Positions 5,407 to 43,929 of a stretch of 64,000 bases of DNA are shown here, one piece after another. Below the pieces are notes generated by a model that did no database searches, was not told the DNA's origin, and saw only the letters and a list, made by a program, of their open reading frames with translations. Each line of letters opens with the position of its first letter. Within the stretch, counting starts at the first letter, position 1. Made by a program: the position numbers and the translations under genes. The DNA comes from Thermococcus sp. AM4 (lineage in GTDB: Archaea; Methanobacteriota_B; Thermococci; Thermococcales; Thermococcaceae). Location: positions 868,001 to 932,000 of the forward strand of contig NC_016051.1 of NCBI RefSeq assembly GCF_000151205.2. The letters run 5' to 3'.

Positions 5407-5853
5407 ATGCCCGATGAGGAACTCGCCAGGGAAGTTCAGGAGCTCAGGAAGGCGCTCGAAGAGCTGAGGGAGAGCTTTGCCCTCGTTTCCCAGCTGGCGC
5501 AGGCCTATCTCCGCTTAATCAACCTCTACGCCCAGTACGGCGGGCTGGGAATAGAGGTGGCCGTTCCCGAGGTTACCGACCCCATATCGAGGGAAATCGT
5601 CCGGATTCTCTTCGACCTCAAGCGGGCGAACGTGAGCGAGATAGCGCGGGAGCTGAAGGGCAGGCGCGGAAAGGCCTCGCGGAACACCGTGAGGGCCAAG
5701 CTGAGGGAGCTTAGGGAGATGGGAATCGTCGTCGAGGTTCCCGGGGAGAGGGGAAAGTGCTACGCCCTCTCAAAGAAGGTGGTCAAAAAGTGGCTCGAAA
5801 TAATCGGAATCCCGATTAACCTTGACCGAACTAAAGATTATCGAGGTGATTGA
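5407..5853 (+). CDS. Winged-helix DNA-binding protein
   Basis: 148 residues from the ATG at 5407. An N-terminal coiled-coil-like helix (residues 1-40) is followed by a winged helix: NVSEIARELKG as the first helices, SRNTVRAKLRELREMG as recognition helix, and a wing VVEVPGERGKCYALS. This is a MarR/ArsR-like transcription-factor layout, and the helix could mediate dimerisation. It is first of three tightly packed genes, with the next start 1 bp after its stop, so autoregulation of this operon is plausible. The start is uncertain: an in-frame ATG at 5386 and a TTG at 5347 lie upstream. Confidence 0.7.
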   Translation: MPDEELAREVQELRKALEELRESFALVSQLAQAYLRLINLYAQYGGLGIEVAVPEVTDPISREIVRILFDLKRANVSEIARELKGRRGKASRNTVRAKLRELREMGIVVEVPGERGKCYALSKKVVKKWLEIIGIPINLDRTKDYRGD

Positions 5854-5854
5854 T

Positions 5855-6340
5855 ATGGAGGAGAAAGTTGGAACCCCCAAGAAGAAGCTGGAGGAGCTCC
5901 TGGACGAGCTCATGGAGGAGATGAGGAACGCGAAGACGCCGGAGGAAGTGAAGGTTCTCAGGGAGAAGGCGGAAATAATAGAGGACCTCATCGAGGCCTA
6001 CGAGGGCGACAAGGACCTTGAGAAGATACCCCTCCTCATGGAGAAGGTCGGCGACATGGTGGAGGACATCCTTCAGCCGCTGAAAGAGCTCCTCAACGAG
6101 CTCTACAGCCCAGAGAGGGTTCAGGCGATTGGCAAGAGCGTGGCCGAGTTCTACAAGAACCTCGTCGAGGCGGGCATGGACAAGGAAGCGGCGCTTGAGC
6201 TCACGAAGGAGTTCATGGACTCGATAAACCCCGGGAAGAAGCTCATTGAAGCTCTGGCGAACCTCACCAAGAAGGGGGCTGTTGTGATAAATGGCCCGAC
6301 ATACTACGGGAAAAACGATGGGGAGGAGAAAGAAGAGTGA
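5855..6340 (+). CDS. Helical protein of unknown function, second in a winged-helix operon
   Basis: 161 residues, almost entirely charged amphipathic helix, with no membrane segment or cysteine. The ATG at 5855 is set by GAGGTGAT ending 4-5 bases upstream. Repeated acidic/leucine patterns (LEELLDELMEEM, LKELLNELY) suggest a helical bundle or coiled-coil partner protein. It sits between the winged-helix gene and a small membrane-like protein. No family was recognised. Confidence 0.6.
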   Translation: MEEKVGTPKKKLEELLDELMEEMRNAKTPEEVKVLREKAEIIEDLIEAYEGDKDLEKIPLLMEKVGDMVEDILQPLKELLNELYSPERVQAIGKSVAEFYKNLVEAGMDKEAALELTKEFMDSINPGKKLIEALANLTKKGAVVINGPTYYGKNDGEEKEE

Positions 6341-6531
6341 TTCTTCCCCTTCTCCGCTTTTTTCTCCGCCTTCCGTTGCTCGCGTTTAAAATCGCCGGCC
6401 TCGTGAGGATAACCAATCGGGCGAGGCGGAGCTTTAAGAGAGTTCTCAGGGAGGAGGGCCTTCCCGGGGACGTAGTCGAGGAGCTCGCCGAACATTTCAC
6501 GCCCAAACTCCCTTCGCTCCTCAAACGGTGA
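6337..6531 (+). CDS. Small hydrophobic/basic protein, third gene of the operon
   Basis: 64 residues starting at a GTG that overlaps the preceding stop (GTGA). The N-terminus (residues 2-22) is hydrophobic and Leu/Phe-rich, followed by a basic stretch (RARRSFKRVL) and an acidic helix. It could be a peripheral membrane peptide. The 4-bp overlap and matching codon bias support a real, translationally coupled gene. Function unknown. Confidence 0.55.
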   Translation: MILPLLRFFLRLPLLAFKIAGLVRITNRARRSFKRVLREEGLPGDVVEELAEHFTPKLPSLLKR

Positions 6532-6599
6532 TCAGTTCTTCAAGATTTTCACGAGTTACCGGAACTTCGTGGACGTCCGATTGAGCAGCCATTCCATCT

Positions 6600-7556
6600 T
6601 TAGTCTTCAGTTCCCCACATGGCCATAACGGTCGCTTTTACCGCGCTCTCGTTCCCGTAGAGGAGCATCACCCTGTCCATACCCGGCCCGTTGTACAGCT
6701 CAATGTACACACTTCCATTGCCCTCAAAGTAAGCCCTCCTGACGATCTCCCCCGCCGGATCCCGGGATTTCAGGGGTGGAAGGGGTTTCTCCTGGAAGCC
6801 CAGCTCCTTAATCCGCTCCTCCAGCTTAACGTAAACTTCTCCCCCACATCCCCATCTGTAAACGGCCACCTCTATTCTTGCCCCCTCGGGGGTGAAGCCG
6901 CTCGCCGAGAGAAGGTCGCCGGAGAAGATTTTGCTCCTTCCAGTTCTGTTTTCAATCCGGGTGTGCATGAAGAGACCGAGCACCTTCCCGGGAGATGGGC
7001 CCACCCACATCATGCTGAACATAAGCTTGTTGAGGGTGTACTCGGCCATGTCGGGCCACTCCTTGTCGTAGGGAACCTTCAGGATCACGATGAAATAGAA
7101 TCCACCGAAATACGCGCCAAAGGCAGAGTACAGCGCATCCCTCCCCAGCCATTTGTCCCTGTCGGTGGCGTTTCCAATTGTGGCAAGTTTCTTTTTGAGC
7201 GCGCCCAACGCTTCTGCTGCCGAATAGGAATCCGGGTAAGCAAAAACGCCGACGTACGCGCTGGAAACCTTAAAGGTTTTATTTGCAAGACTGCCCTCCG
7301 GAACGGGGAAATCTGGCCTGGCTGGCACGACCGAGTACTTTTCTTTGAGGGGCTTGATGAACCCGGCGATGCTGCTGTTTGGATCCATCCCGCAGAGGGG
7401 ATCCGATGGGGCTATTGTTCCAATTTCATCCAAAAACCCTTCTCTCATGGAGGTCATTGAGGTTGAGGTTTTCGTTTCAGGGGACTTCTCAGGGGAGCTC
7501 AGGCATCCGGCGGCGATTACGATGACAACCAGGATAAGGGTTAAAACTTTCCTCAT
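6600..7556 (-). CDS. Secreted lipoprotein of unknown function
   Basis: 318 residues. It begins with a short basic stretch, a hydrophobic segment and a lipobox ending AAGC (Cys18), then a Ser/Thr/Lys-rich linker (SPEKSPETKTSTS). This is the standard Thermococcales lipoprotein N-terminus, so the mature protein should sit outside the membrane. Two further cysteines (LCGMD, GCGGE) could pair. No domain was recognised. Its promoter (TATA near 7590) is preceded by a perfect tandem 14-bp repeat, suggesting regulation. Confidence 0.7.
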   Translation of the reverse strand: MRKVLTLILVVIVIAAGCLSSPEKSPETKTSTSMTSMREGFLDEIGTIAPSDPLCGMDPNSSIAGFIKPLKEKYSVVPARPDFPVPEGSLANKTFKVSSAYVGVFAYPDSYSAAEALGALKKKLATIGNATDRDKWLGRDALYSAFGAYFGGFYFIVILKVPYDKEWPDMAEYTLNKLMFSMMWVGPSPGKVLGLFMHTRIENRTGRSKIFSGDLLSASGFTPEGARIEVAVYRWGCGGEVYVKLEERIKELGFQEKPLPPLKSRDPAGEIVRRAYFEGNGSVYIELYNGPGMDRVMLLYGNESAVKATVMAMWGTED

Positions 7557-7581
7557 GGTGACCCCTGCCTTACTACTTGAG

Positions 7582-7597
7582 GGGAGTATAAATAGTT
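7582..7597 (-). promoter_or_regulatory. TATA promoter of the lipoprotein gene
   Basis: Minus-strand ctatttatactcc lies about 34 bp before the ATG at 7556, giving a predicted short leader that includes GGGGTCACC-type bases before the start. Confidence 0.55.
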
Positions 7598-7600
7598 TTT

Positions 7601-7628
7601 GCAGCGTATGTGAAGCAGCGTATGTGAA
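7601..7628. repeat. Perfect tandem duplication of a 14-bp unit upstream of a promoter
   Basis: GCAGCGTATGTGAA occurs twice head to tail (7601-7614 and 7615-7628). On the minus strand it lies just upstream of the TATA box of the lipoprotein gene, where archaeal activators usually bind. Confidence 0.85.
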
Positions 7629-7702
7629 AACTCTGCGGGTTAGCCCGGTCGCGGCCGCATTTTTCTCCCAAACGCTACCGTTGGGGTTCTGTTTCCGCGG
7701 GG

Positions 7703-8866
7703 CTAAAAGTACCTTTCAAAGAAGTCTCCCAGGTCTCTTCCGCTCAACTCCTCCGCGAGCCTTCTGAAACTCTCGAAATCCACGTTCTCAGCTCCCGCGA
7801 GAATCCTCAGCAGATCGTAGAAGGAATCCTCCATTAGCAGGTGAAGGTCGTAAAGGATTAAGGCCCCCTTCGTGTACGATAGCTCCCATAGGCCGAGCCT
7901 CCCCCACTCCGACGGTTTGAGCTTCTCCGCCTCCGGAAAGCGCTTAACGATGGCTTCGTAGTTCCTTCTCAGGCCCTCGATGAAGCGGTTGAACGCTTCC
8001 TCGCCGTGTATCTCTCTAATCGCAAGCGCCGTTAGATAGTTGGCAAAGGCCTCGTCGAAGAACCTGCTCAGGTGCGCCTCGGGCGTTGCCCTCGGGTTCC
8101 AGAGGTGGGCGAGCTCGTGGTAGAGGTTTGCGGGTATCTCGGCCCTCAGCGAGCTTCCGGAGACGAGCGCGTAGCCCTTCCCGGCCTGCCCACCGTAGTT
8201 CTCCGGCGTCTCGATGACGGTGAACATATTCGTCCCGCGCCCCAAGATTGCCGAGTAGAACCGGTATGCCTTCTCAAGCAGTTCGAGCGTCCTTTCAATT
8301 CCTTCCTTGCCCAGAACGAAGAGCCTGAAAGGCTCCTCTTCAATCTCTGTGGAGGGCGCTATGGCGATGTCGAGCCTGTTTGTGCCCTCGATTCTCAGCC
8401 GGTTCCCGCGTATTTCCCCGCCAAAAGCGACCACCAACCCCTCTGGAACTCCCTCCACCGTTATTTCCGCGTTAAATTCGGAGCTAACGACCGACTTTAT
8501 GAGGCTTTCAAAGTCCGGCTCCGATGGGATTGGGTAGAAGAGCGAGTCCGTTCTGAGGAGGGTGTACTCCGGGTTTACGGAGTCCTTGAGGTAGGAAAGG
8601 ACGCTCTCGTAGCCCGCAAGCCTTCCCGAATAGCTAAGCTCGACTTCCTCGCGCGGTTCTTCAAGCCGAACGACGCTGGTCTTAAAGGCCTCAACGCCTC
8701 TGAGACCCTCCAAGCACCATGAAAACGGGACGCTCGTGGAGTCCACTTTCAGCCCCCTGTTGAGGAGGAAGGTTATCGCTTTTCCGGCCAGCTTTAACTT
8801 TGTCTCTACTTCCAGCGCTCCCTTTTTGAAGTCGAAGTTCAGATGGAGTTCCAAGTGCTTAATCAT
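7703..8866 (-). CDS. M1-like zinc metallopeptidase
   Basis: 387 residues. The gluzincin site HELAHLW (about residue 250) is followed ~20 residues later by FDEAFANYL, giving the HExxH-x18-E layout of M1 aminopeptidases. The N-terminal ~170 residues look like beta-sandwich strands. The protein is much shorter than classic M1 enzymes and lacks a clear GAMEN box, though ETPENYGGQAG may be its equivalent. No signal peptide, so probably cytosolic. The start overlaps the preceding acetyltransferase by 8 bp, so the two are probably co-transcribed. Confidence 0.75.
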   Translation of the reverse strand: MIKHLELHLNFDFKKGALEVETKLKLAGKAITFLLNRGLKVDSTSVPFSWCLEGLRGVEAFKTSVVRLEEPREEVELSYSGRLAGYESVLSYLKDSVNPEYTLLRTDSLFYPIPSEPDFESLIKSVVSSEFNAEITVEGVPEGLVVAFGGEIRGNRLRIEGTNRLDIAIAPSTEIEEEPFRLFVLGKEGIERTLELLEKAYRFYSAILGRGTNMFTVIETPENYGGQAGKGYALVSGSSLRAEIPANLYHELAHLWNPRATPEAHLSRFFDEAFANYLTALAIREIHGEEAFNRFIEGLRRNYEAIVKRFPEAEKLKPSEWGRLGLWELSYTKGALILYDLHLLMEDSFYDLLRILAGAENVDFESFRRLAEELSGRDLGDFFERYF

Positions 8867-9395
8867 TCCCACTACTTCTGAACTTCTCGTAAATCAGCTC
8901 GTCTAAGTACCTCCCGTCGCTCCAGACGTGCTCCCGGAACCGTCCGCTCAATGAGAAGCCGTTCTTCTCGAGAACGCGGATTGAAGGAATGTTGTCGCTG
9001 TGAACCTTCGCCCAGACCTTACGCAGATTTAGGTGCCTGAAGGCGTATTCGCAGAGGAGCCTCACGACTTCCGTCCCATAACCCTTTCCCCTCTCCTCTG
9101 GTGCGAGGTAGTAGAACAGCTCACCCCATCTCGCGCTCCAGTTGGCCCAGTTGAAGCCCGCGATGCCTATGAGGGTTCCATCGTTTTTGAGGACGGCAAA
9201 GGCAGGCGCCTTTTCCTTGTTCTTCTTCAGCTCCTCGTAGAACTCCTCCTCTTCCTCTGGGAGTGTGAAGTAAGCAGAGTTAAAGAAGTTCCTGACCGTG
9301 CTTCTCTCGTTGTACCATTCCCAGCTTTTCCTAAGGTCTTCTTTGAGTAGTATTCCCAGAGAGACCTTTTCTCCCCTGAGGACTACCGGTCGCAT
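8859..9395 (-). CDS. RimJ/RimL-type GNAT acetyltransferase
   Basis: 178 residues. LRGEKVSLGIL at the N-terminus, the CoA loop APEERGKGYGTEV and the C-terminal VLEKNGFSLSGRFREH are typical of the RimJ/RimL branch, which acetylates protein N-termini, ribosomal proteins or small amines. The ATG at 9395 fits this N-terminus better than the upstream TTG at 9407. The gene overlaps and probably leads the metallopeptidase gene. Confidence 0.82.
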   Translation of the reverse strand: MRPVVLRGEKVSLGILLKEDLRKSWEWYNERSTVRNFFNSAYFTLPEEEEEFYEELKKNKEKAPAFAVLKNDGTLIGIAGFNWANWSARWGELFYYLAPEERGKGYGTEVVRLLCEYAFRHLNLRKVWAKVHSDNIPSIRVLEKNGFSLSGRFREHVWSDGRYLDELIYEKFRSSGND

Positions 9396-30468: not shown

Positions 30469-31446
<978 letters not shown>

Positions 31447-35261: not shown

Positions 35262-35720
35262 TCATCGGCGCCTCACGAGCTTTGAGGACTCAACGACCCT
35301 TCCGTTCTCCAGCCGGTAGAGGTTAACGATCTCCGTATCGACCGTCTCGCGCCTGTAGGCGAGGAGGTAGTCTATAAAGTTTCTGATCGGGTACCTTGAT
35401 ATCGAGTCCCCCACGTACTTGTGCTCGTAGAGGACGACGAGCCTGTCACGATGGGAATCCAGCCACGAGTGAAGCCTTTCCCGCTCATTTCCCGTCCTCG
35501 CAAGGGGGTTGAGGATCAGGTAGACATCGAAGTTCTCGTTTTCGAAGGGGTCGCCGATGAAGACCTCTCCCTCAATCTGGAAGGGAAGCCCCTCCGCCAG
35601 CACCTTCCACCCCTGTCTGGCCCATTCGTTGAGGATTATCCTCGCTATCCTCTTCGGGTTGCCCGTCATGAGTATCCGTCCGGATTTGAGGTAAAGAAGA
35701 TCCGTTAGCCTGAGTGCCAT
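35262..35720 (-). CDS. Conserved-looking protein of unknown function
   Basis: 152 residues, predicted alpha/beta. It has an N-terminal helix with strand (GRILMTGNPKRI), a second strand at VYLILNP, and a charged C-terminus ending VRRR. No membrane segment or recognised motif; it vaguely resembles a RecA-like or nucleotide-binding half-domain without a P-loop. GGAGGAAAGGGA precedes the ATG. It sits upstream of ftsY on the same strand, separated by 100 bp that contains the ftsY TATA (gatatatatgaata). Confidence 0.6.
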   Translation of the reverse strand: MALRLTDLLYLKSGRILMTGNPKRIARIILNEWARQGWKVLAEGLPFQIEGEVFIGDPFENENFDVYLILNPLARTGNERERLHSWLDSHRDRLVVLYEHKYVGDSISRYPIRNFIDYLLAYRRETVDTEIVNLYRLENGRVVESSKLVRRR

Positions 35721-35886: not shown

Positions 35887-37179
35887 ATGAAATGGAAAAG
35901 CGTGTTCGCACTTTTGGTTGTCGGGCTCGTTGCCCTTAGCGTAGCGGCCAGCGGCTGCATTAGTGGTGGAGGAGAGAAGACTGGGATAAACATTCTCTAC
36001 ACCTACACGGGATCCTTCGGTGACCCGGCCAAAGGAAAGCAGGCGGCTCAGGCCCAGCTCCAGCAGGGTGCGTGGGTTATCTACCAGGTCGCTGGAGGAA
36101 CCGGTCTCGGTGTCTTCGAGGCCGTTGGCGACTACCTCAAGGCCAACAACAAGAAGATGGGTCCTCCGTTCGCGATAGGAGTTGACTCCGCTCAGGACTG
36201 GATTAAGCCCGGCGTTATAATCGCCAGCATGATGAAGCGCGTTGACGTTGGTGTTTACAACGCCGTCAAGCAGGCCGAGGAGAACAAGTTCAAGGGCGGC
36301 GTAGTTGAGCTCGGCCTCAAGGAGGGCGGCGTTAAGCTCTCCACCATAGACGACGTTAAGGCCATGTTCGACTCCCTCCCTGCCGACGTCAGGGAGAAGA
36401 AGCTCAAGGACCTTGGGTTTAAGAACGAGAGTGAGCTCATCCAGTTCCTCGAGCAGACCAGGAAGCAGGTTCCCGACTGGATATGGCAGGCCGTTGACGA
36501 CCTCCAGAAGCAGATAATCAACGGACAGATCGTCGTTCCGAAGGCGACCTCCAAGGACCAGATCGAGGAGCTGAGGAAGCTCAGCGACTGGAAGAAGATG
36601 GAGGACTACGCCAAGCAGTGGGCGGCCAACGAGCCCAAGCCCGAGACCTACTCCAACGAGACCCTCAACGAGAGGCAGAACACCGGAAAGATAGCCATCG
36701 TTTACGACGTCGGCGGCAGGGGTGACCTCAGCTTCAACGACATGGCCTACATGGGTGCCGAAAGGGCAGCTAAAGAGCTCGGCCTCCAGCTCGATGAGCT
36801 CCAGAGCAACAGCGAGAACGACTACCTGCCGAACCTCAGGAGCCTCGCCAAGAGCGGTGAGTACGACATCATCATCGCCGTCGGCTTCATGATGACCAAG
36901 GCCGTCAAGCAGGTCGCCAAGGAGTACCCGAAGCAGAGGTTCGTCATCATCGACGGTTACGACCCGGAGATGCCCCACAACGTCCAGATGGTCCTCTTCA
37001 AGGAGAACGAGGGTTCGGCCCTTGCCGGTGCCCTGGCGGCTTTGATAACGCTTAACGACAACAAGAACACCATCGGAATCGTCCTCGGTATGGAGATTCC
37101 GGTTCTCTACAAGTTCGAGGGCGGCTACCGCTTTGGCGCCTACTGGGCCCTTGACTACTACAAGAACCACAAGCAGTGA
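35887..37179 (+). CDS. BMP-family (PnrA/TmpC-like) solute-binding lipoprotein with swapped halves
   Basis: 430 residues. Signal sequence with lipobox SVAASGC (Cys24), then the segment normally found in the C-terminal half of BMP proteins: YTGSFGDPAKGK (41-51), GGTGLGVFEA (70-79), IGVDSAQDW (97-105), FKGGVVELGLKEGG (135-148). Then, after a linker at ~240-266, comes the segment normally N-terminal: IVYDVGGRGDLSFND (271-285), NDYLPNLRSL, FVIIDGY, FKENEGSALAGALAAL, GMEIPVLYKFEGGYRFGAYW (401-420). The order is thus C-half then N-half. The break falls near the hinge between the two lobes, so folding as a circular permutant is plausible. It should bind nucleosides for the adjacent transporter. Confidence 0.88.
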   Translation: MKWKSVFALLVVGLVALSVAASGCISGGGEKTGINILYTYTGSFGDPAKGKQAAQAQLQQGAWVIYQVAGGTGLGVFEAVGDYLKANNKKMGPPFAIGVDSAQDWIKPGVIIASMMKRVDVGVYNAVKQAEENKFKGGVVELGLKEGGVKLSTIDDVKAMFDSLPADVREKKLKDLGFKNESELIQFLEQTRKQVPDWIWQAVDDLQKQIINGQIVVPKATSKDQIEELRKLSDWKKMEDYAKQWAANEPKPETYSNETLNERQNTGKIAIVYDVGGRGDLSFNDMAYMGAERAAKELGLQLDELQSNSENDYLPNLRSLAKSGEYDIIIAVGFMMTKAVKQVAKEYPKQRFVIIDGYDPEMPHNVQMVLFKENEGSALAGALAALITLNDNKNTIGIVLGMEIPVLYKFEGGYRFGAYWALDYYKNHKQ

Positions 37180-37180
37180 T

Positions 37181-37200
37181 CTTCTTCCCTCTTTTTGTTT
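37181..37200 (+). terminator. T-rich terminator or attenuator after the binding-protein gene
   Basis: The run cttcttccctctttttgttt directly follows the stop codon. Partial termination here would explain how a binding protein is made in excess of its transporter. Confidence 0.4.
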
Positions 37201-37236
37201 CGCCCTTTCACTTTTTGAGTTCCGGAGGTGAAAGCG

Positions 37237-38772
37237 ATGGAAGAGCGAACTCCAGTGCTCGAGATGAGGGACATCGTGAAGATCTATCCCGACGGCACAA
37301 AGGCCCTCAAGGGGGTTACGATCAAGGTTTACGAGGGCGAGATCCTCGGTCTTCTCGGCGAAAACGGTGCCGGAAAGACAACGCTCATGAAGATCCTCTT
37401 TGGAATGCTCAAGCCCACGAAGGGCAAGATCTTCCTCAGGGGTAAAGAGGTCCGCTTCAAAAGCCCCGCAGACGCGATAGCGAACGGGATAGGAATGGTT
37501 CACCAGCACTTCACGCTCGTCGAGGTCTTCAACGCACTGGAGAACATAATCCTCGGAATGGAGGGACACGGCCTTCTCTCGAAGATCGACGTCGAGAACG
37601 CGAGGAAGAAGCTTCAGAAGCTCATGGACGAGCTCAACTTCCAGGTTCCCCTCGACGTTCCAGTCGAGAACCTCCCCGTCGGCGTTCAGCAGAGGATAGA
37701 GATCCTCAAGATGCTCTACCGCGACGTTGACATACTCATCCTCGACGAGCCGACGGCTGTCCTCACGCCGATAGAGGTCAAGGAGCTCTTCGCGGTTCTC
37801 AGGAAGCTAAAAGCCCAGGGGAAGACGATAATCTTCATCAGCCACAAGCTCAACGAGGTAATGGAGATAACCGACCGCGTCACGGTCATAAGGAAGGGAG
37901 AGGTTATAGGAACCGTCAAAACGAGTGAGGCAACGCCCCAGCTCCTCGCGAGGATGATGGTGGGAAGAGACGTCGTGCTGAGGATCGAGAAGCCCCCCAA
38001 GGAGCCCGGTGAGGTGATCTTCCGCGTTGAGGATCTGTGGGTGAAGGGAGACAGGGGAGAGGAAGCCGTTCGCGGCCTGACCTTCGAGGTTCGCGCCGGG
38101 GAGATATTCGGAATAGCTGGAGTTGAAGGCAACGGTCAGAGCGAGCTCATAGAGGCCATAGCAGGCCTGAGAAAGATCGAAAAGGGCAAAGTTTACCTCA
38201 AGGGCGTTGACGTTACAGGAAAGAGGCCGAGGGATCTCTACGATATGGGAGTGGCGCACATCCCCGAGGACAGGACGCACATGGGCCTAATCCTTGAGAT
38301 GACGGTGATGGAGAACTCAATCCTGGGAATGCACTGGAGGGAGGAGTTCTCCAGGGGACCGCTCATCGACTGGAATAAAGTTGAGGAGCACGCGAAGAGG
38401 CTCATAGACGAGTTCGAGATAAGCGCCCCCGGAACCAAGGCCCCGGTGAAGAGCCTGAGCGGTGGAAACCAGCAGAAGCTCATCGTTGCCAGGGAAGTCA
38501 GCAAAAAGCCGGAGTTCATCATAGCGGCCCAGCCGACGCGCGGCGTTGACGTGGCTTCGACAGAATACATCAGGAACTACCTCGTCAAGCTGAGGAACGA
38601 GGACAAAGCAGTTTTACTCGTCTCGGCCGATCTGGACGAGGTTCTCCAGCTCAGCGACAGGATGGCGATAATGTACGAGGGCCAGTTCATGGGAATAGTC
38701 AGGCCCGACGAGGTTACCGAGGAGCAGATAGGACTAATGATGGGAGGTGTTAAGGGTGAACCTCAAGGATGA
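37237..38772 (+). CDS. ABC transporter ATPase with two nucleotide-binding domains (nucleoside type)
   Basis: 511 residues. The first domain has an intact Walker A (GENGAGKTTLMK), Q-loop HQHFTLVE, signature LPVGVQQRIEIL and Walker B LILDEPTAVLTP. The second domain has a degenerate Walker A (GVEGNGQSELIE, no Lys), a good signature LSGGNQQKL and AAQPTRGVDV in place of the canonical Walker B. This asymmetry is usual in the ribose/nucleoside importer class. The ATG at 37237 has CGGAGGTGAAAG upstream. It overlaps the first permease. Confidence 0.92.
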   Translation: MEERTPVLEMRDIVKIYPDGTKALKGVTIKVYEGEILGLLGENGAGKTTLMKILFGMLKPTKGKIFLRGKEVRFKSPADAIANGIGMVHQHFTLVEVFNALENIILGMEGHGLLSKIDVENARKKLQKLMDELNFQVPLDVPVENLPVGVQQRIEILKMLYRDVDILILDEPTAVLTPIEVKELFAVLRKLKAQGKTIIFISHKLNEVMEITDRVTVIRKGEVIGTVKTSEATPQLLARMMVGRDVVLRIEKPPKEPGEVIFRVEDLWVKGDRGEEAVRGLTFEVRAGEIFGIAGVEGNGQSELIEAIAGLRKIEKGKVYLKGVDVTGKRPRDLYDMGVAHIPEDRTHMGLILEMTVMENSILGMHWREEFSRGPLIDWNKVEEHAKRLIDEFEISAPGTKAPVKSLSGGNQQKLIVAREVSKKPEFIIAAQPTRGVDVASTEYIRNYLVKLRNEDKAVLLVSADLDEVLQLSDRMAIMYEGQFMGIVRPDEVTEEQIGLMMGGVKGEPQG

Positions 38773-39802
38773 GCTCAGGGGCTACGTCAAGCCCGTCGCC
38801 GAGAGCGTTTTGGCGATACTCATTGGAGCCTTCATAGGTGCCCTCGTCCTCTGGTTCAGCGGATACAGCCCGTTTGAGGCCTACTACTGGCTGATAAGGG
38901 GCTCCCTCACGTCTGTTGATGGCATCGCCGAAACCCTCGCAAAGTCCGCGCCGCTGATCCTAACTGCCATAACCTTCGCTATAGGCGCAAGGACCGGACT
39001 CTTCAACATCGGTGCCGAGGGGACAGTTTACTTCGGAGCGATGGCGGCGATAATAGTGACCCAGTACCTCCAGAACCCGATAGCGGGCCTTCTCGCCGGC
39101 CTTCTCATTGGAGCCCTGTGGGCCCTTCCCGCGGCGGTTCTCAAGGTTTACAGGGGAGTGCACGAGGTCATATCGACGATAATGTTCAACTGGATAGCCT
39201 TCTTCATCGTCAGCTGGCTCGCGGTCAGCGTCTACTACAACCCCAAGGATCCGAACAGCACGCTGCCGATTCCCCCATCGGCGAGGCTTCCGCTCCTCGT
39301 GAAGAACACCAGCCTCTCCTGGGCCTTCATAATAGCGATCCTCGCGGCCGTTATAATCTTCATCGTGATGTGGCACACCAAGCTGGGCTACGAGCTCAGA
39401 ACCAGCGGACAGAACCCGAGGGCGGCCGAGTACGGCGGAATCAACCCGAGGCGCTCGGCCATCTGGTCCTTCGTCATCGGCGGAATGACCGCCGGACTGG
39501 CCGGGGCCGGAATAGTCATGGGAACGCCCCCGAGCTACGCAATAACCCAGGGACTGGCCAACGTTTACGGCTACGGCTTCGACGGAATAGGCGTCGCCCT
39601 CGTCGGCAGGAACCACCCGCTCGGCATAATCTTCTCGGGAATCCTCTTCGGAGCCCTGAGCGCAGGAGCGACCGCGATGCAGCAGCACGCCCACGTTCCG
39701 CTGGAGATGATCAAGGTCATCGAGGGAATAATCATCATCGCCGTCGCCGTTCCCGGGTTAATCGACCTCTTCGCCAGGCTCTTCAGGAGGGGTGGGGCAT
39801 GA
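38756..39802 (+). CDS. ABC transporter permease, first subunit (nucleoside type)
   Basis: 348 residues with about 8-10 hydrophobic helices. Motifs GLFNIGAEGTVYFGA and GQNPRAAEYGGINPRRS are typical of BPD_transp_2 permeases in nucleoside importers. The GTG at 38756 follows GGGAGGTG by 6 bases. It overlaps both flanking genes. Confidence 0.9.
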   Translation: MNLKDELRGYVKPVAESVLAILIGAFIGALVLWFSGYSPFEAYYWLIRGSLTSVDGIAETLAKSAPLILTAITFAIGARTGLFNIGAEGTVYFGAMAAIIVTQYLQNPIAGLLAGLLIGALWALPAAVLKVYRGVHEVISTIMFNWIAFFIVSWLAVSVYYNPKDPNSTLPIPPSARLPLLVKNTSLSWAFIIAILAAVIIFIVMWHTKLGYELRTSGQNPRAAEYGGINPRRSAIWSFVIGGMTAGLAGAGIVMGTPPSYAITQGLANVYGYGFDGIGVALVGRNHPLGIIFSGILFGALSAGATAMQQHAHVPLEMIKVIEGIIIIAVAVPGLIDLFARLFRRGGA

Positions 39803-40710
39803 ACGAGTCGATGATAATAAGCCTCCTCCTCGGCTCACTGGCGGCGATGGTGCCGATAGCGCTGACCAGCATAGGCGCTGTGATAAGCGAGAGGGCCGGT
39901 GTCGTGAACATCGGTTACGAGGGAATCCTGATGTTCTCGGCGTTCTTCGGAGCGATGTTCGCCGAACTCGCCGGAAACGGCTGGGTCGGCCTTCTCGGCG
40001 GGGCCCTCGTCGGACTGCTCTTCGGAGCTCTCCACGGATTCCTGACAGTGTACCTCAAGGGAGACCACGTCATTCCGGGCATTGGCCTCAACCTCCTCGG
40101 CTACGGTGCGGTGGCTTTTGGCATTCGCGCCTACTGGGGAACCGCCGGCCAGCACCAGGTTCCCAACAACGCCCAGATAAGCCCCCTGTGGATGGACGCC
40201 TTCGGAAACGCGCTGAGTCCGATGGTGCCGATAACGATAGCGATAGCCGTAATAGCCTGGTGGGTGCTCTTCAAAACGCCCTTTGGACTGAGAATCCGCG
40301 CCGTCGGTGAGAATCCAGAGGCGGCCGATGCCCTCGGAATAAACGTCGAGCTCTACCGCTTCACGGCGGTGCTCATAGCCAGCGCATTAGCGGGTGTCGC
40401 CGGTGCCTACCTCAGCGTCGACTGGCTCGGAACCGTTACGAAGCAGATTGCCGCGGGAAGGGGTTTCATAGCGCTGGCGAACATGGTCTTCAGCGGCTGG
40501 AACCCGCTGATAGCCCTCGGCGGTGCGTTCCTCTTCGGGTTCTTCGACAACCTGGCGATCTACATCCAGAACAACCCCTGGCTGGCGGGAACGATACCCT
40601 GGCAGTTCATAGCGACGCTGCCCTACGTGGTTACCCTGATAGTCGTCGCCGGAATAATAGGAAGGGCCAGACCGCCCAAGTGGGACGGCAGGCCCTACAA
40701 GCGCGAGTGA
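39799..40710 (+). CDS. ABC transporter permease, second subunit (nucleoside type)
   Basis: 303 residues, about 8-9 hydrophobic helices, paralogous to the first permease: GVVNIGYEGILMFSA and GENPEAADALGINVELYR align with its motifs. The ATG at 39799 overlaps the preceding stop by 4 bp and has GGAGGGGTGGG upstream. Together with the upstream ATPase and lipoprotein it forms a complete importer. Confidence 0.9.
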   Translation: MNESMIISLLLGSLAAMVPIALTSIGAVISERAGVVNIGYEGILMFSAFFGAMFAELAGNGWVGLLGGALVGLLFGALHGFLTVYLKGDHVIPGIGLNLLGYGAVAFGIRAYWGTAGQHQVPNNAQISPLWMDAFGNALSPMVPITIAIAVIAWWVLFKTPFGLRIRAVGENPEAADALGINVELYRFTAVLIASALAGVAGAYLSVDWLGTVTKQIAAGRGFIALANMVFSGWNPLIALGGAFLFGFFDNLAIYIQNNPWLAGTIPWQFIATLPYVVTLIVVAGIIGRARPPKWDGRPYKRE

Positions 40711-41692: not shown

Positions 41693-42018
41693 GTTAGATC
41701 ACCCTAATCCGTTATGGCCTCCCTCTTTAAAGGTTGTCGGAAGCACACCAGACTGATGCAAGTGCCTCAAAACGGCCATAAAAACCGAAGAAATGACCGC
41801 GATGGTGTGAATTGTTACAGACATTGCATACAAATCGGACATATTATCTCCTTAATCGCGGGTTTAAGCGAGAAAAGGAACGGTGATCACTCCACATCCT
41901 CCCCTCGAACCGATTTCCTTTCCGCTCAGTCCTTTTTGAACTATTGAAGAACATTAAAAAGCTTAACTTGGTAGGAAAAAGTTTAAAGTATTCACCCTAA
42001 ATGTTCCCGGGGATTCTC
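41693..42018. other. 326-bp gap: two promoters, no supported gene
   Basis: A weak frame at 41714-41947 has no ribosome-binding site and atypical residues, so it is not called. The right end has a clear TATA (gaaaaagtttaaag, about 41974-41987) for the metalloprotease gene. A second TATA-like element (gggtttaagcg, about 41859-41869) with a T-run at about 41931-41937 could bound a short unannotated RNA. The left end serves the ZnuA-like gene. Confidence 0.5.
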
Positions 42019-43929
42019 ATGAACAGGAAGGGCACAACCGTGGCAATCCTTCTGATCGTTTTGGTTGTTGGTGTCATTTCGGTATACCTGATCGCCCCGC
42101 AGGAGATGGGCGGAACCCATGAGAAGCTCCAGCACAACACCACGATATACCACTTCTCGCCGAACGTCACCGTGGAGATATCACCCTCCCTGGAACTCTT
42201 TGGAGTAGTCTACTACCTCGCAATGGGCAACGACACATTCGTTACTGAGAGGGGGGCCTACCTAAACGATGTCCGGAGGTGGTTTTCGCCATTCCGAAAT
42301 CACGAGGCGGTCAAACTGCTCAGGGAGACCCTTGAAGAGCGCATCAACGAAACACAGCATGAATACGGTGCCTACGCAGGGCTCTGGGTCAAGGGGTACA
42401 CGATCTTCCTTGTGGAGTACACTCTTTTCAATTGCCCCAACCCTGAGAACATCAACGCCTCCCAGCTCCTCAACAGGAGCGACGTGCAGTGGTTCCCCGA
42501 GGAACAGCGGATGTTCCTGAAGAAATTTTTGCCCGCACTCAAAGACTTCGCGGAAAAGAGCAACTTCATGGAGTTCTACAGGAGACACATGAACTACTAC
42601 AGGGGTGACCTGTCGATCTACGCGAACGCCCTGAAGGAACTGCCCCCCGACAGGTTCATGGAGAAGTACGCGGGCGTTTCTGGTGTCAGGTACCTCTTCG
42701 TTCATCCCTACCTGATAATCGCACACGGCCACAACATGAGGGAGAAAATAAACGGAACCACGATCCTCGGAGTCGGCGGCAGCATTCCCCTGGTAAGACG
42801 CAGTCCCCAGCGGACGCTCTGGAGCTACGAAACTGCCAAGGATGACCTCCTGAATCTACCCCTGAACAGGGACTACATTGTAAACCAGGGGCTTGATGAG
42901 CTGCTCTACCTCGAGTTTATCTACCACGAACTGGGACACGACATCACGATTCCCGCGTTGCAAAACGAATCCTCCGAACTCGCAGGCATGGAGTATTTCG
43001 TCGATGTTACGAGGGCCGACATGCCCTATCTAGCGCGCTACGACATGCACTTCCAGAGCAGGGCAGGATTGATCTACGAGGGCTTCGCCGATGCATGGGC
43101 CGACTTTGCACTCTCCCACGTTGACAGGGACTATGCAAAACTCATCATGTGGATGCAGCGCGGATGGGGTGAGTTCTGGATAGAGAAGCAGTACGAGCTT
43201 ACGGAAAAGTACGTGGAGAGGGCAAGAGAGGAGGGGAGACCGTTCTCATACTACGTGCCCCAGATCCTGAGTGGGCTGAGGTCCTTTGTATCGCCGGACA
43301 ACGTGAGCGAAGTCTACGAGGAAAACGTTCCAGTGACCCCGCTTAGGGCGCTGGACAGGGCAACCGTAACCGGCAGGGTCGTGGTCGTCTACGGCACGGG
43401 GGGAACCAACGAGGACGAAAAACAGGCCGTGAAGTCAGCCGCGGAGAAGATAGCGAGTACCCTGAGGAAATTCTACGGGGAGGGGCTCACCGGAACGGAA
43501 GTTATACTCAAACCGGACGCCAACGTAACACCCGATGACCTGAAAGGAGAGCTGGTCCTCGTCGGAACCCCGGACGTGAACTCGGTGGTAAAGGATATGG
43601 AGGGCAAGTTCCCCCTGTACTTTGTGCGGGAGGGCGATGGCAGGTGGGTGCTCCACAGGAACGGGGAATGGAACGTGACCTCCTTCGTTCTGACGACCCG
43701 GAAGGACGATCCTGCGGTAAAGGGAGAGCTCAAAGACACTTCCAGGGTCGCGATCCTGCTGGCGGTGAGGAACCCCAACAACCCTGAGAACTACGTTGTG
43801 TGGACCGCAGGAAGCACGGCAGGGCTCACGGGACTGTTCCAGGATCCCGCCTACTACCTCAGCAGCTACGAAATATGGAGTAAGAAAGGAATAGAGCTGG
43901 GCTTTTACGTTCAGCCGCTCTCTTCCTGA
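42019..43929 (+). CDS. Membrane-anchored DUF4932-like metalloprotease
   Basis: 636 residues. One N-terminal membrane segment (about residues 8-27) puts the rest outside. HELGH (about residue 303) is followed by EGFADAWADF ~50 residues later, as in gluzincin-type DUF4932 proteins. The C-terminal ~180 residues (from about VVVVYGTGG) form a separate alpha/beta domain with GELVLVGTPDVN and AVRNPNNPENYVVWTAG, like that seen in Thermococcales surface proteins. The ATG at 42019 is preferred because 42001 would precede the predicted transcript start. Confidence 0.78.
   Translation: MNRKGTTVAILLIVLVVGVISVYLIAPQEMGGTHEKLQHNTTIYHFSPNVTVEISPSLELFGVVYYLAMGNDTFVTERGAYLNDVRRWFSPFRNHEAVKLLRETLEERINETQHEYGAYAGLWVKGYTIFLVEYTLFNCPNPENINASQLLNRSDVQWFPEEQRMFLKKFLPALKDFAEKSNFMEFYRRHMNYYRGDLSIYANALKELPPDRFMEKYAGVSGVRYLFVHPYLIIAHGHNMREKINGTTILGVGGSIPLVRRSPQRTLWSYETAKDDLLNLPLNRDYIVNQGLDELLYLEFIYHELGHDITIPALQNESSELAGMEYFVDVTRADMPYLARYDMHFQSRAGLIYEGFADAWADFALSHVDRDYAKLIMWMQRGWGEFWIEKQYELTEKYVERAREEGRPFSYYVPQILSGLRSFVSPDNVSEVYEENVPVTPLRALDRATVTGRVVVVYGTGGTNEDEKQAVKSAAEKIASTLRKFYGEGLTGTEVILKPDANVTPDDLKGELVLVGTPDVNSVVKDMEGKFPLYFVREGDGRWVLHRNGEWNVTSFVLTTRKDDPAVKGELKDTSRVAILLAVRNPNNPENYVVWTAGSTAGLTGLFQDPAYYLSSYEIWSKKGIELGFYVQPLSS

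Follow-up and report, generated by a model that had tools for sequence, protein, structure and literature searches.

The window, as the whole stretch of 64,000 nucleotides analysed here is called, belongs to the chromosome of Thermococcus sp. AM4 (NC_016051.1). It contains a gene for a 430-residue BMP/PnrA lipoprotein, which is encoded together with an ABC ATPase and two permeases (Table 1). A Pfam profile search found no other Bmp gene in this genome. The halves of the protein are circularly permuted, and in the genomes compared both permuted and conventional genes occupy one slot, in the order FtsY-DUF-[BMP]-ABC ATPase-permease-permease-ZnuA.

Several neighbouring genes were also characterized. 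A conserved 152-residue protein with no Pfam match is encoded between FtsY and nupD (35262-35720, minus strand), as in most Thermococcus genomes, and a divergent 642-residue DUF4932-domain protein (40 to 52% identity) is encoded at 42001-43929 on the plus strand, syntenically downstream of ZnuA in many genomes of the genus. At 30469-31437 on the minus strand, about 4.4 kb from the putative nucleoside importer, lies a gene for ribose-1,5-bisphosphate isomerase (matches to 3a11 and 5yfj with E values no higher than 1e-180), which acts in the pentose bisphosphate pathway, a route that uses nucleoside ribose. This gene also adjoins the operon in the sister species, G014, and was absent from the regions examined in other relatives.

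Table 1. Features of the nup locus, in positions of the window
Feature	Position	Strand	Basis or remark
Gene for the circularly permuted BMP/PnrA lipoprotein of NupD type (430 aa)	35887..37179	+	Translation; family matches in inverted order; 85% identity with TK0657/NupD
Signal peptide and lipobox (SGC, Cys24)	35887..35958	+	Sequence; 23/23 residues shared with G014, the sister carrying the conventional allele
B block (residues 33-245): usual second half of the fold, here in front	35983..36621	+	Family and structure alignments
Linker uniting the original C and N termini (about residues 246-266), roughly AxEPKPETYFNxxLNxRQNT	36622..36684	+	Conserved in permuted proteins; junction-spanning match only in 22 permuted genomes
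A block (residues 267-430): usual first half of the fold, here at the end	36685..37176	+	Family and structure alignments
Thr39 codon, equivalent to evolved T39M of TK0657	36001..36003	+	Alignment to TK0657; PMC12628685
Lys117 codon, equivalent to evolved K117E of TK0657; binding pocket according to PMC12628685	36235..36237	+	Alignment to TK0657; PMC12628685
ABC transporter ATPase (NupA type)	37228..38772	+	Allele label changes once on its tree
ABC transporter permease 1	38747..39802	+	Allele label changes once on its tree
ABC transporter permease 2	39799..40710	+	Allele label changes once on its tree
Exchanged cassette, approximate extent	35960..40710		Identity steps between the window genome (G000) and sister G014; 5' edge just after the lipobox Cys

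The lipoprotein has the order signal peptide-B-A, whereas conventional family members have signal peptide-A-B. The Pfam Bmp profile (PF02608) matched it in two pieces in reversed order, the N-terminal part corresponding to profile positions 156 to 280 and residues 271 to 418 to positions 5 to 149, with a score of 173 bits (cut-off, 24.1) over most of the profile. PDB chains including 4pev, 7x0r, 2fqw, 6y9u, and 6shu matched in the same inverted manner. These matches bear out the reversal of the halves proposed in an earlier note on this DNA, and translation of the ORF placed the motifs quoted there, together with the lipobox, in a single frame. Since homology to PF02608 is certain but the match is not colinear with the profile from N to C terminus, the protein was classified as a circularly permuted variant of the family, distinct from its conventional members. 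The product is a type I solute-binding lipoprotein of the BMP family that has undergone natural circular permutation. It has the fold family and conserved motifs of PnrA from Treponema pallidum (PDB 2FQW) and of the conventional BMP lipoproteins of the Thermococcales, and the operon partners of the latter; both of these have the A-B order, and their halves are about 70% identical to those of the window protein in Thermococcus and about 30% identical in PnrA.

Of the 61 genomes from the genus, 22 carried the permuted order; the phylum's other 54 genomes contained no instance of it. Classification of the ORFs gave the same 22 genomes, several of them metagenome-assembled (MAGs), and the other Thermococcaceae and outgroups examined were conventional. 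When a 122-residue query spanning the B-A junction was searched against the 115 genomes of the phylum, 22 matched it end to end (E values up to 4e-50) and the remainder matched one side only (E values from 1e-20), so that the two types were cleanly separated. Two wrongly joined contigs might produce such an appearance, but no evidence of such a join was found; full-length colinear homologues (78 to 90% identity) are present in other assemblies, including isolates and MAGs, which excludes chance or misassembly. The same junctions recur in 22 independent assemblies, complete genomes among them, and Thermococcus kodakarensis, which carries the same order, was resequenced for a published study (PMC12628685). 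The probability of an assembly or annotation artefact is therefore negligible.

In that study, NupD (TK0657) of T. kodakarensis is an experimentally supported nucleoside-uptake protein of the NupDABC system, on the basis of growth genetics; a "flipped domain arrangement" of its N- and C-terminal regions was reported there in October 2025, and the evolved mutations T39M and K117E were placed at positions 559628 and 559861 (PMC12628685). The permuted gene of G010 has codon 39 (ACG) starting at 559627 and codon 117 (AAG) starting at 559861, in agreement with the published changes, which identifies G010 as T. kodakarensis. The window protein is 85% identical to TK0657, retains Thr39 and Lys117, and has the family, order of halves, break, linker, and operon in common with it. 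Nucleoside uptake by the window protein is thus predicted from the literature on its T. kodakarensis orthologue. The permutation itself is not new, given the published arrangement of NupD, and was already known from this one species. The earlier note had allowed for an order common to all close homologues as a known variant; this applies in part, since roughly one genome of the genus in three has the order and its description for T. kodakarensis NupD dates from 2025. The available part of PMC12628685 covers one protein and does not report the conventional allele at the locus, a single origin, or repeated exchange, and no account of a two-allele, single-origin, repeatedly exchanged nup operon was found in the open-licence literature searched.

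The structure prediction that the note had suggested gave AlphaFold2 models for the permuted protein (pLDDT, 89.5; pTM, 0.88) and the conventional protein of G014 (pLDDT, 88.3; pTM, 0.85) that share their strands and helices but differ by a rotation of the order. Foldseek aligns in chain order, and a permutation predicts reduced coverage; accordingly, the permuted model aligned with PnrA (2fqw) over 155 columns (rmsd, 2.0), about half of that protein, and the conventional model over 361 columns, nearly all of it. On these models, the fold is predicted to be the ordinary bilobed one of PnrA/BMP proteins. The permuted model also aligned in chain order and at full length with PDB 5er3 from Rhodopirellula baltica (419 columns; TM score by target, 0.57; rmsd, 9.6; 10% identity), which ranked high for it and lay outside the best 50 matches of the conventional model; 5er3 may itself be a permuted solute-binding protein.

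The cut site is a loop, around QKTGKDVN, that links the helix after the first C-lobe strand to the strand that comes next. Alignments mapped it to about residue 163 to 166 of BmpD, the C-terminal domain of which comprises residues 116 to 242 and 270 to 323 (PMC7093131). The break is thus located within the C-lobe, and its placement at the lobe crossover in the earlier note has to be abandoned. Similarly, the TG context noted at both junctions was not conserved among the 22 permuted proteins, which leaves its reading as the scar of a recombination event unsupported. Of the 155 positions invariant in conventional Thermococcaceae proteins, 142 were invariant and identical in the permuted ones, and dN/dS values of the permuted protein were about 0.03 to 0.13, both of which indicate that it is under purifying selection.

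A naturally permuted type I solute-binding protein was known earlier, namely, TpMglB-2 (Tp0684) of T. pallidum, termed "Type Ic" (PMC4990184). Like the window protein, it is lipidated and has its own ABC transporter genes, but it belongs to the MglB/glucose family and is broken within the N-lobe, after the first three strands (PMC4990184), whereas the break described here follows the helix after the first C-lobe strand. The different family and break point to a separate origin.

All 22 permuted proteins formed one clade in a tree of the BMP proteins aligned after rotation (SH-aLRT, 100), and 19 permuted operons formed one clade in a tree of the ABC and permease proteins (SH-aLRT, 100). On the RNA polymerase tree of 74 genomes, by contrast, 11 changes of type were required, at least 10 of them forced by well-supported branches, and a grouping of the permuted species as one clade was rejected (AU test, P of 8.6e-65). 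This scatter over the species tree is what would be expected if the permutation had arisen several times at the same loop, but the single clade with full support in two separate data sets, the identical break points, and a shared linker of about 20 residues present in no other genome searched lead us to reject independent permutations as highly improbable. The flanking genes required 8 (FtsY), 9 (DUF), and 10 (ZnuA) changes of type on their trees, whereas the ATPase and each of the permeases required only 1, indicating that the four genes are exchanged together, without their neighbours. On these sequence comparisons, the permuted and conventional forms are diverged alleles of a single operon that share one locus, and permuted nupDABC has most probably replaced the conventional version at this chromosomal position about 10 times within the genus.

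The boundaries of the exchange were visible in pairs of sister species, in which the flanks remained highly similar and the operon fell to about 55 to 85% DNA identity. Between the window genome (G000) and G014, DNA identity was about 83 to 97% through the signal peptide, 59 to 80% across the operon, and again 82 to 84% at ZnuA, with the downstream edge near the stop codon of permease 2, within about 250 nt. At the protein level, this pair was 97% identical in FtsY, 91% in DUF, 71% in A, 72% in B, 80% in the ATPase, 61% in permease 1, 64% in permease 2, and 87% in ZnuA. The pattern was reciprocal with G035 and G056, permuted species from another clade: FtsY was 85 to 86% and DUF 52% identical to G000, the signal peptide agreed in 14 of 23 residues, and identities rose to 95% in A, 92 to 93% in B, 96% in the ATPase, 95 to 96% in permease 1, and 94% in permease 2, to drop to 57% in ZnuA. 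Four further pairs showed comparable steps, with upstream edges ranging from about 60 nt before the ATG (G024/G004) through its vicinity (G010/G020) to just after the lipobox; this variation indicates that the signal peptide is not the sole crossover point. In G024/G004, the downstream edge lay further out, within the ZnuA gene. Flanks like those of the sister and an operon like that of distant permuted species point to replacement of a conventional cassette by a permuted nupDABC cassette, most likely by homologous recombination. In the trees of the conventional allele, G014 grouped with G023 and with G008 and G003; the conventional form was therefore probably resident in this clade, with the window genome as the recipient, and the direction of replacement would have been permuted into conventional.

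The stem of the permuted clade in the ABC/permease tree (0.41, about genus depth) shows that the alleles are old, as would also be expected of two ancestral paralogous operons that were differentially lost and not exchanged. Nevertheless, both forms have the same position, with the DUF gene on one side and ZnuA on the other, and were never found in tandem, and in distantly related hosts the permuted operons resemble one another more closely than the flanks do. Moreover, identity to the sister breaks off abruptly within the signal peptide or close to it, contrary to what differential loss predicts. The only genome holding both operon forms, on separate syntenic contigs, is G005, a MAG that is 53% complete and probably a mixed bin. 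We consider such paralogy unlikely. G040 was rejected as a second carrier of both forms, because its conventional-order copy is a separate gene: a 1,071-residue ORF (L081 locus, 5797-9009, plus strand) comprising a conventional-order Bmp domain (residues 75 to 362), a probable transmembrane segment, DUF7662, and a Ser/Thr protein kinase domain (residues 689 to 938), apparently an archaeal receptor kinase whose sensor domain is of the nucleoside type. The first approximately 280 nt of its B half were nearest the permuted allele (86 to 89%) and its A half was conventional-like, which suggests gene conversion. A plasmid or viral carrier of the permuted gene was likewise rejected, since the plasmids searched gave no full-length match and the viral contigs searched no relative.

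Taken jointly, the data are best explained, with a probability of about 0.88, by a NupD protein of the NupDABC importer that was permuted once and whose operon has repeatedly replaced the conventional one. The window lipoprotein would be the nucleoside-binding NupD, its chain starting within the C-lobe, after the first beta-alpha unit and before the second, with the original termini joined by the conserved linker; anchored by its N-terminal lipid, it would present nucleosides to the ABC permease encoded alongside. The permutation would have arisen on the stem branch of the genus or close to it. The simplest route would be an in-frame tandem duplication of A-B, after which the first A (behind the signal peptide) and the last B were lost; no duplication intermediate was found. 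The whole permuted operon would then have been exchanged repeatedly into this locus, with homologous recombination through the shared flanks as the most likely mechanism, and in the lineage of the window genome this would have happened after the split from G014. It is conceivable, if rather doubtful, that the two forms constitute a long-lived, trans-species two-allele system exchanged as whole blocks under diversifying selection, whether on substrate range or by a virus targeting the surface protein, which would maintain both alleles in the genus. In such a system, the permutation would break the colinearity of the first gene, so that any crossover there would be destructive and exchange could proceed only as a whole block.

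In mosaic operons, a resident operon is replaced in situ by homologous recombination and the flanks are kept. The nup locus differs in that the incoming allele is circularly permuted, so that the first gene is not colinear between the alleles. Natural circular permutations are usually regarded as differences that became fixed between distantly related families; at the nup locus, sister species carry the one or the other form, with a single origin of the permutation, a known function, and a genetically tractable carrier in T. kodakarensis. This makes the functional cost or benefit of the permutation directly testable by allele swaps, and the nup case indicates that a permuted gene can spread through the ordinary replacement of its operon.
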